Source: Candidatus Woesearchaeota archaeon (GTDB lineage: Archaea > Nanobdellota > Nanobdellia > Woesearchaeales > GW2011-AR4). Taken from it: a stretch of 40,119 bases of DNA. The position numbers and the translations under genes were made by a program. Of the stretch, positions 1,122 to 23,909 are shown piece after piece. Each line of letters starts with the position of its first letter. Within the stretch, counting starts at the first letter, position 1. The stretch spans positions 1 through 40,119 of the forward strand of contig JADHVE010000002.1 in NCBI GenBank assembly GCA_016784195.1, in the 5' to 3' direction. A model generated the notes under the pieces. The model did not search any database, had not been told where the DNA came from, and was given only the letters and a program-made list of their open reading frames with translations.

Positions 1122-1237
1122 CGCCGAGGGTGGGATTTGAACCCACATATCCCGAAGGAAACAGGATTTTTACAATCTGTATAGCAATCTTACGCTTCTT
1201 GTTGAATCTGCGCAGTACCAGATTGTGCCACCTCGGC
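1122..1237 (-). tRNA. tRNA-Ser(GCU) with two introns (plus-strand 1190-1207 and 1168-1181)
   Basis: Acceptor GCCGAGG/CCTCGGC, G73, T-arm GTGGG-TTCAAAT-CCCAC, long variable arm TTTCCTTCGGGATAT. Removing the two insertions gives a perfect anticodon arm CAGGA-TTGCTAA-TCCTG. Confidence 0.8.
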
Positions 1238-7286: not shown

Positions 7287-7444
7287 TCACTTCTCGCCAT
7301 TTTTGCCCTTATTTTAGCTATTTTCCAGCAATTCCATCCCTCACTATTACTTAAACTTTGCTCAAAATCCTTCCAAAGATTATTGCTTTCAGAACAAATA
7401 TAAAAACCTTGCCTTTCCACAAATCTGTTTTTATTCTTCATCAT
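7274..7444 (-). CDS. Small conserved-looking ORF (56 aa), overlapping start of methyltransferase gene
   Basis: Manual translation MMKNKNRFVERQGFYICSENSNLWKDFEQSLSNSEGWNCWKIAKIRAKMARSECSK; stop TGA overlaps ATG at 7277 (ATGA). Below ORF-track length cutoff. Confidence 0.5.
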   Translation of the reverse strand: MMKNKNRFVERQGFYICSESNNLWKDFEQSLSNSEGWNCWKIAKIRAKMARSECSK

Positions 7445-7519
7445 CTCTCTGAATTTTTTATCTCAACTAAAAAAATTAAAGTGCTATAACTCAAGTTCTT
7501 ATTCTCTTTATAGTCTCAT

Positions 7520-7684
7520 TCCCACAACATTCCCAGCAATTCCCTCGTCGGCAAAACATTTTCTTCATTCCCATGATAATCCCACCATATTCCCAAGACT
7601 ATCCCACCATAGTCCCACTATTTATAATTTTCTGTTCTGAAGATATTCCCCCCACGTTCCCAACTTATTCCCAACACAGTCCCA
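7520..7684. promoter_or_regulatory. Array of 12 TCCC(A) motifs phased at about 11 bp
   Basis: TCCC starts at 7520, 7531, 7541, 7569, 7580, 7591, 7602, 7613, 7647, 7658, 7669, 7680; immediately upstream of TATA-like ATATTTAAATA (~7691-7701). Confidence 0.85.
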
Positions 7685-7726
7685 AAAAACGAAATATTTA
7701 AATAAACCAGATTTATTTTATTAATT

Positions 7727-8440
7727 ATGTTCTGGAACCAAAACAAGATACAAAAAAAGATTTCAAATCTGCACAATCTTTTATCACAGTCATTCGGAAA
7801 TGTAAAGCAGGATACAGGCATCATCTTCCAGTGGCTGGACTACTTCCATAAAAAAAATTTAGAGCAGGAGCAAATAATCAAGAAGCTTCAGCTTGAGCTT
7901 TCTTACATACCTAAAACAAAAGAAGACCTAAAAAGAATCCTTGACAGCTATTATTCCTACGGGCCAATTTTAGAAAAAATCAATGATCTGAAAGAAAGAA
8001 TAGACTCTTCAAAAAGGGAGCGAATTATAGAAAATGAGCCAATCCTGAGAAAAATCAGAGAGCTTGATGAGCGTATAGAAGCAGTTAAACGGCAGGAATT
8101 AAGGCATATAGAAGAGCCAAAAGCTGCTTTAGAATTAGAATCAATAAGATCCAGATTAGGAAGATTAGAGCAAAAAAAGGATGCTATAAAGGAAAAAATA
8201 ATCAAGAGAATAACCAGAAACTCCAAAGATTATGTCAAGTCAATCTTAGTATCATACATCAAGAAATATGAAAAAATATCAGCCTTGCAGTTAAAGGAAA
8301 TGATTGTTGAAGAGCAGGGACTATGTTCAAAAAGCTCTTTCTACAGGATTCTGGAAGAAATAGAAATCATGAACGAAATAGCCACAATAAAGAAAGGCAA
8401 AGAAAAGCATTATATGGCTAAGAAGATAAAACTACAATAA
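7727..8440 (+). CDS. Coiled-coil protein with C-terminal winged-helix domain
   Basis: 237 aa; long E/K/R/L heptad region, then ISALQLKEMIVEEQGLCSKSSFYRILEEIEIMNEIATIKKGKEKHYM (wHTH). Confidence 0.75.
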   Translation: MFWNQNKIQKKISNLHNLLSQSFGNVKQDTGIIFQWLDYFHKKNLEQEQIIKKLQLELSYIPKTKEDLKRILDSYYSYGPILEKINDLKERIDSSKRERIIENEPILRKIRELDERIEAVKRQELRHIEEPKAALELESIRSRLGRLEQKKDAIKEKIIKRITRNSKDYVKSILVSYIKKYEKISALQLKEMIVEEQGLCSKSSFYRILEEIEIMNEIATIKKGKEKHYMAKKIKLQ

Positions 8441-8498
8441 AGCATATACTGCAAAATAGAAATATATTTAAACAAGACTAATCTAGAAATCCTCGGGG

Positions 8499-9068
8499 GT
8501 GATTGCCATTTTTAGCAATTTTTTTAAGCAGATAAAATGCTCTTTTATAAAAAAAGAGAAGAACAAGAGCATTTTACAAAAGAAAATCTTAAATGAAATT
8601 AAAAATCAGTCTGAAGAGCATTTAAGGGCTATTAATGAGAATACAAACGAGATTCAGTCCAATTATGGCTATATTTCAGAAATTGAAAATAAGATGCATA
8701 AATTAACTGAAAGGATAGACCAGATGCAGCTATTCCTGCAATCCAACAGCAACTTTGTCATGGATAGGATAGAGAATTTTGAGATAAAGCCATTGACAAG
8801 AAACGAGCAGTATGTATTCCTCGTTTTATACGCTTTGGAAGAGGAAAAAGGCTTTGTATCTTACTTGGATATAGCAAGAAAAACAGGCTTCACTGAATCT
8901 TTAGTGCTGGACTATGTAGCCTCTGTTATTGAAAAAGGAGTCCCAATAATAAAGAGATACATCAACAGCAAAGCCTATCTAAAGCTGGATAAAGACTTCA
9001 AAAGGTTGCAGACAAAAGAAAACATCTTGTGCATAGATACAGCTCAAAAAGAGCTTATCAATTTTTAA
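8499..9068 (+). CDS. Coiled-coil protein with C-terminal winged-helix domain (second of a tandem pair)
   Basis: 189 aa; N-terminal coiled coil, then LTRNEQYVFLVLYALEEEKGFVSYLDIARKTGFTESLVLDYVASVIEKGVPI (wHTH). Confidence 0.7.
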   Translation: MIAIFSNFFKQIKCSFIKKEKNKSILQKKILNEIKNQSEEHLRAINENTNEIQSNYGYISEIENKMHKLTERIDQMQLFLQSNSNFVMDRIENFEIKPLTRNEQYVFLVLYALEEEKGFVSYLDIARKTGFTESLVLDYVASVIEKGVPIIKRYINSKAYLKLDKDFKRLQTKENILCIDTAQKELINF

Positions 9069-23786: not shown

Positions 23787-23909
23787 GCCAGGATGACGGA
23801 GCTCGGTTAATCGTGTTCGCCTCGAATAGCATAAATGTTTTTCATTTATAATTTTCAAAAGAGAGCGAATGTCCTTCGGGACACGCAGGTTCAAATCCTG
23901 CTCCTGGCG
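23787..23909 (+). tRNA. tRNA-Ser(CGA) with an intron (23827-23863)
   Basis: Acceptor GCCAGGA/TCCTGGC, G73; TTCGC-CTCGAA[intron]A-GCGAA; variable arm TGTCCTTCGGGACAC; GCAGG-TTCAAAT-CCTGC. Confidence 0.95.

Follow-up and report, generated by a model that had tools for sequence, protein, structure and literature searches.

In Candidatus Woesearchaeota archaeon, a tiny uncultured archaeon, about a dozen copies of the short DNA word TTCCCA lie on one face of the double helix beside the gene of a probable DNA-binding protein (P1). Relatives keep such a site next to that gene, and almost nowhere else in their genomes, even where it is no longer the promoter of the gene, so it looks like a docking site for the chromosome, perhaps a primitive centromere. 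The window that we analysed is a stretch of 40,119 nucleotides (assembly GCA_016784195.1, contig JADHVE010000002.1, positions 1 to 40,119, forward strand). The features that concern the array are as follows.

7520..7545 (+), array block 1, three TTCCC sites (7520, 7531, and 7541)
7544..7555 (no strand), second element CTCGTCGGCAAA between blocks 1 and 2 (TCGWCG type; consensus TTATCGTCGATAA in relatives)
7569..7617 (+), array block 2, five TCCCA sites in strict 11-bp register
7618..7646 (no strand), linker of three helical turns (site-to-site step 34 bp), TATA-like ATTTATAA; in most relatives it holds TCGTC/TCGAC, here degenerate
7647..7684 (+), array block 3 (proximal), four sites at -80, -69, -58, and -47 from the ATG, positions shared by most relatives
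7690..7704 (+), BRE (CGAAA, 7690-7694) and TATA (TATTTAAATA, 7695-7704) of the 7727 promoter
7727..8440 (+), P1, 237 residues, N-terminus MFW plus basic residues, long coiled coil, C-terminal winged helix (about residues 140-231); probable array-binding protein
8499..9068 (+), P2, coiled coil plus MarR-like winged helix; obligate neighbour of P1
9445..10110 (+), short tyrosine recombinase (context, not a proven part)

The earlier note had described a helically phased array of 12 TCCC(A) motifs with an 11-bp period directly before a promoter, and this observation is correct in every coordinate. The TCCC words start at 7520, 7531, 7541, 7569, 7580, 7591, 7602, 7613, 7647, 7658, 7669, and 7680, with steps of 11, 10, 28, 11, 11, 11, 11, 34, 11, 11, and 11 bp. 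A tandem repeat search (TRF) also finds block 2. Two copies, at 7541 (TTCCCTCGTCGG) and 7647 (TTCCCCCC), lack the A, so ten copies are true TCCCA. Over 198 sites from 24 loci of the same family, the unit is T-A-(T/G)-T-C-C-C-A-n-n-A with a period of 11. The proximal block ends 5 bp before the BRE and 43 bp before the ATG. The promoter is a good archaeal one and is conserved in 24 loci; its spacing to the ATG suggests a (nearly) leaderless mRNA, although the transcription start is inferred. Rfam and tRNA scans found nothing at the array. Elsewhere in the window, Rfam finds two tRNAs spanning 116-123 bases that ARAGORN misses, at 23787-23909 (+) and 1122-1237 (-), which are probably intron-containing.

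The array is not due to chance. The intergenic stretch 7287-7726 contains 13 TCCC and 8 pairs exactly 11 bp apart, whereas 5000 dinucleotide shuffles gave a mean of 0.06 and at most 2 such pairs, and 100,000 random placements of 12 sites in the same span gave at most 6. Comparable periodicity in shuffled sequence and absence of the array upstream of all orthologues had been named in advance as observations that would defeat the proposal; neither was found, since shuffles do not reproduce the array and orthologues carry it.

P1 is modelled (mean pLDDT 84) as a long helical coiled coil followed by a confident winged helix. Its fold neighbours are generic winged helices (HOP2, Fur, BlaI, TubR, and AspA), all weak and none with E below 0.004. 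P2 is an 80-residue coiled coil plus a MarR-like winged helix. Sequence searches of Pfam, NCBIfam, PHROGs, and PDB gave no family for P1 or P2 beyond weak HTH and coiled-coil matches, and plasmid and phage collections hold no P1 relative. A conserved GGGGTG(AT) stands at or just before the P2 start in most loci (window 8494-8501); it may be a Shine-Dalgarno match rather than the GTG start. Upstream of the array, a methyltransferase and RNA polymerase subunit L (RpoL) are encoded divergently, and they are divergent neighbours in most loci (55 and 62 of 76, respectively). P1 and P2 are neighbours in all 76 named loci. A full-length XerA lies within 8 kb in 39 of the 76, at or near the place of the short tyrosine recombinase, mostly just after P2 on either strand, and directly upstream of P1 in two genomes of another order (loci L194 and L199; L numbers denote loci). 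The short tyrosine recombinase of the window is 79-81% identical to copies in distant relatives (L105, L109, L132, and L154) whose neighbouring genes are only about 50% identical or less, a sign of possible mobility or unusual constraint. A contig labelled Patescibacteria (L115, JAHILT010000040.1) carries P1, P2, and XerA of woesearchaeal type and is probably mis-binned.

P1 orthologues occur in 41 of 60 relatives and, in a profile search, across the order. About half the genomes of the order give no clear P1 hit, including a 96% complete genome (G003) of the same family, so P1 is not universal. We oriented and read the region before P1 in about 75 loci. Nearly all carry the array, usually at -80, -69, -58, and -47 plus a second block near -157 to -113, with a linker of 33-35 bp that often holds the palindrome-like TTATCGTCGATAA. 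An extra upstream block, as in the window, is also seen in L028, L030, L031, and L033. In 71 canonical loci there are 345 site pairs at 11 bp, against a mean of 0.6 and a maximum of 4 in mononucleotide shuffles, with peaks at 11, 22, 33 (33-34 for the linker), 44, and 55 bp; 54 of the 71 have at least three such pairs. Independent assemblies of dozens of species share the array. TCCCA drifts to TCCTA or TCTCA, some families have mirror copies (TGGGACAGTCCCA), and family f41 (L045 and L049; f numbers denote families) uses a 9-bp instead of an 11-bp step, with ATTCCCAACGTTCCCATCATTCCCA in L045 and three such clusters upstream. At L007, L008, L009, L010, L012, and L014, an inverted copy of the site (TTGGGACTATA or close) lies between TATA and ATG, at the expected transcription start.

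The array is the only one of its kind in this genome. Matches of a triple-site pattern in 28 of 60 genomes fall at the P1 locus with two or three stray exceptions, and a reversed control gave 1 hit in all. P1 coding sequences are nearly free of the word (68 in 47 kb, versus 543 in the 330-bp upstreams). A second palindromic element, TTATCGWCGATAA, sits in the array linkers (for example window 7544-7555) and again about 1.1 kb upstream in several genomes; it is also recorded at positions 214914 and 215003 of contig C12 of genome G009. It looked like a partner site, but its genome-wide counts resemble those of the reversed control and it is not locus-specific.

Three families, f9, f10, and f53, show no array before P1 and carry it 3' of P1 instead. 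In f53 (L068 and L069), P1 is inverted, giving the order P2(-), P1(+), array, methyltransferase(+), RpoL(+). The new upstream region of P1 has one site at most, but 15-16 sites (blocks of 3, 7, and 5) with spacings 12,10 / 33 / 10,11,11,11,10,11 / 34 / 10,11,11,11 remain at the old place, now at the 3' end of P1, again once per genome; the array still lies upstream of the methyltransferase gene. In f10 (L158), the array lies between P1 and a convergent gene, far from RpoL, so it is nobody's evident promoter. The evidence is strong in f53 and f10, whereas in f9 (L022 and L160) it is weak (5-6 sites, shuffle maximum 3-5). Therefore, the array does not owe its upkeep to the promoter of P1 alone.

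Where the repeat word changes, the winged helix of P1 diverges with it. Between families that share the TCCCA word, the winged helix of P1 is 56% and its recognition helix 72% identical, although its N-terminal part is 32% identical. In sister orders, the N-terminus keeps 17-24% identity but the winged helix falls to 11-17%, and there the word is different: TGTTTAAACAGCTGTTTA (f107), TTGAACATTCAA type (f104), CGTCTACGAAC in 11-bp steps (f95), and CTTAACAATAA (f91). The winged helix of P2 stays 29-37% identical over the same comparisons. This points to P1 as the binder, but it is a correlation over few lineages without a tree-based test of co-evolution over all genomes; binding was not assayed, and complexes of P1 with DNA or with P2 were not predicted. 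In f107 and f103, the word also sits inside the P1 coding sequence, in the linker between coiled coil and winged helix (peptide AVQTAVQTAVQT, DNA GCTGTTCAAACAGCTGTTCAAACAG). Such embedded words, at about +247 to +330 of P1, are seen in Pacearchaeota-like genomes (L184, L186, L188, L191, L192, L195, L196, and L198), where they force peptide repeats such as AVQTAVQTAVQT. Codon choice is biased towards the word (ACA in 57 of 61 Thr codons there and 24 of 68 elsewhere in P1; p about 3e-10 against rest plus background), though recent duplication could add to this bias. The word occurs almost only at this locus in eight genomes. P2 has its own, different repeats in its linker in L184, L186, L188, L191, L194, and L199 (STHSSTHN, TDRQTDRQT, SLTHSLTHS), in L194 and L199 also before its start (CACTCACTCA or CACGCAC), and P2 may have its own intragenic array.

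In total, 83 of 93 P1 proteins begin with an aromatic or hydrophobic cluster followed by basic residues (MFWKK, MFGWFGRKK, MSWFFGKK), against 14% of other frames; this background is rough because its start codons are mechanical. The motif resembles membrane-targeting ends and is the reason for the idea of a tether, which is an inference.

In the reading that we favour, about as likely as not, the array is a single-copy, cis-acting protein-assembly site bound cooperatively by P1 through its C-terminal winged helix, one wing per TCCCA, all on one DNA face, and the three-turn linkers would keep the blocks in register. It would work like the iteron centromeres parC and tubC, as a nucleoprotein complex at one chromosomal place that the coiled coil and aromatic/basic N-terminus of P1 tie to the membrane or to a partner (P2), serving chromosome anchoring or segregation. 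Because the site lies across P1's own promoter in most lineages, it would also set the level of P1. The array, its phasing, its uniqueness, its linkage to P1, its persistence without being the promoter of P1, and the co-variation of the repeat word with the winged helix rest directly on the sequence data, whereas binding by P1, cooperative assembly, membrane attachment, and a role in segregation are inferred from them. Several results weigh against this reading: no NTPase gene (ParA, ParM, or TubZ) lies at the locus, the locus is not origin-proximal, being 109-359 kb from cdc6 in the four genomes with both on one contig, and the fold matches of P1 are generic. P1 is also not universal in the order, the proximal block stands at a fixed distance from BRE/TATA in most genomes, and in f53 the array still lies upstream of the methyltransferase gene. 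GC skew of a near-complete relative (G100, sampled every 50 kb) gave no usable origin or terminus signal.

The main rival is a purely autoregulatory operator, through which P1 would repress or activate its own promoter as BldC does on direct repeats, with no structural role. We consider it less likely but possible, and it probably describes part of the function in most genomes. In most loci the proximal block lies at a fixed distance about 5 bp before BRE/TATA, as expected of a regulator, TTGGGACTATA lies at the expected transcription start in several g10 genomes, and direct-repeat binding by a winged-helix regulator has precedent (PMC5859096). However, the complete multi-block array persists 3' of P1 in the two f53 genomes and in a convergent region in f10, while the new promoter of P1 has 0-1 sites; the array thus sits at the P1 promoter in the canonical loci but not in these families, and its position does not settle the matter either way. 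In addition, twelve or more sites over 165 bp is far more than an autoregulator needs, and in sister orders sites lie inside the coding sequence.

An operator for another factor, or shared divergent control of the methyltransferase-RpoL operon and P1, is unlikely. RpoL and the methyltransferase are divergent neighbours in most loci and the array stays with them in f53, but in f10 it is next to P1 without them, the word co-varies with the winged helix of P1, and there is no second array in the genome, as a global regulator would need. An iteron-type replication origin is very unlikely: the direct repeats are in helical phase with A+T-rich surroundings, but no replication-initiator gene lies at the locus, cdc6 is 109-359 kb away in four genomes, and no plasmid or phage relative of P1 was found in the collections searched. 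Least likely is chance, an assembly artefact, or a passive DNA-curvature repeat with no specific binder. Phased motifs can bend DNA, but the conserved core is C-rich and sequence-specific and changes with the winged helix of P1, and the conservation data already contradict this reading.

The interpretation in the earlier note is thus supported in part. Helical phasing, non-coding nature, and a link to the adjacent gene hold. Binding by the adjacent proteins gains indirect support for the 7727 product but not for the 8499 product, a partition site is plausible, and a replication iteron is not supported. The statement that no archaeal element of this form has been described agrees with the literature that we could search, but the bacterial plasmid centromeres parC and tubC have very similar anatomy, with direct repeats in two or three blocks next to the gene of their binder and overlapping its promoter (PMC5016525).

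As in the type II site parC of plasmid R1, tandem direct repeats stand upstream of the operon, split into blocks around or beside the promoter; in R1, ten direct repeats flank the par promoter and ParR also represses it (PMC5016525). The parC repeats are 11 bp long. ParR is ribbon-helix-helix and works with the actin-like ParM, whereas P1 and P2 are winged-helix proteins, the locus is chromosomal, and a Pfam scan of the genes around the array found no ParM. As in the type III site tubC, direct repeats stand in blocks upstream of the gene of the probable binder. TubR is a winged helix and autorepressor (PMC5016525), and TubY is an HTH plus coiled coil with a membrane- and DNA-binding tail (PMC7762940), close to the domain plan of P1. 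There is no TubZ at the locus and no detectable sequence relation. P1 has a winged helix, but its fold match to TubR (E about 0.1) is no better than to many regulators and no sequence match was found in PDB, so we neither assign P1 to TubR homologues nor exclude it from them. In the SegAB system of Sulfolobales, the sites lie just upstream of the gene pair (SegB S1, S2; PMC11381335), and AspA of the AspA/ParB/ParA system of pNOB8 makes a superhelix on DNA (PMC9178275). AspA is a winged helix. SegB is RHH on palindromes, both systems have a ParA-type ATPase gene beside them, and neither has a phased direct-repeat array of this kind. No ParA-type gene lies at our locus, and ParB_N is present in only 1 of 30 relatives; SegB itself was not searched for genome-wide. 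BldC-type operators of Streptomyces bind winged-helix proteins head-to-tail on direct repeats of variable number (PMC5859096), but these are 9-bp repeats with 2-4 copies in the promoters described, versus 8-17 copies at one place per genome, usually 11 bp apart, here. RacA and Noc of Bacillus join a DNA-binding HTH to a coiled coil and/or a membrane-binding amphipathic end, but their sites are many and dispersed. The locus therefore fails membership in every known partition family, because no ParM, TubZ, or ParA gene accompanies it and the probable binders have no detectable sequence relation to the known ones.

A further possibility, which we advance tentatively, is that Woesearchaeota, and in altered form other orders of the same class, use a so far undescribed chromosome-anchoring or segregation system. 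It would consist of a single self-linked iteron array recognised by a coiled-coil/winged-helix protein with a membrane-binding end (P1), partnered by P2 and often encoded next to XerA, without a ParA-, ParM-, or TubZ-type motor in the locus, in which the repeat word and the winged helix change together between lineages. How DPANN archaea position and segregate their chromosomes is essentially unknown, and a single, conserved, computer-recognisable site with its probable binder gives a concrete handle on this question. The repeat word also seems to co-evolve with a DNA-binding domain across many lineages, a natural data set for reading winged-helix recognition codes.
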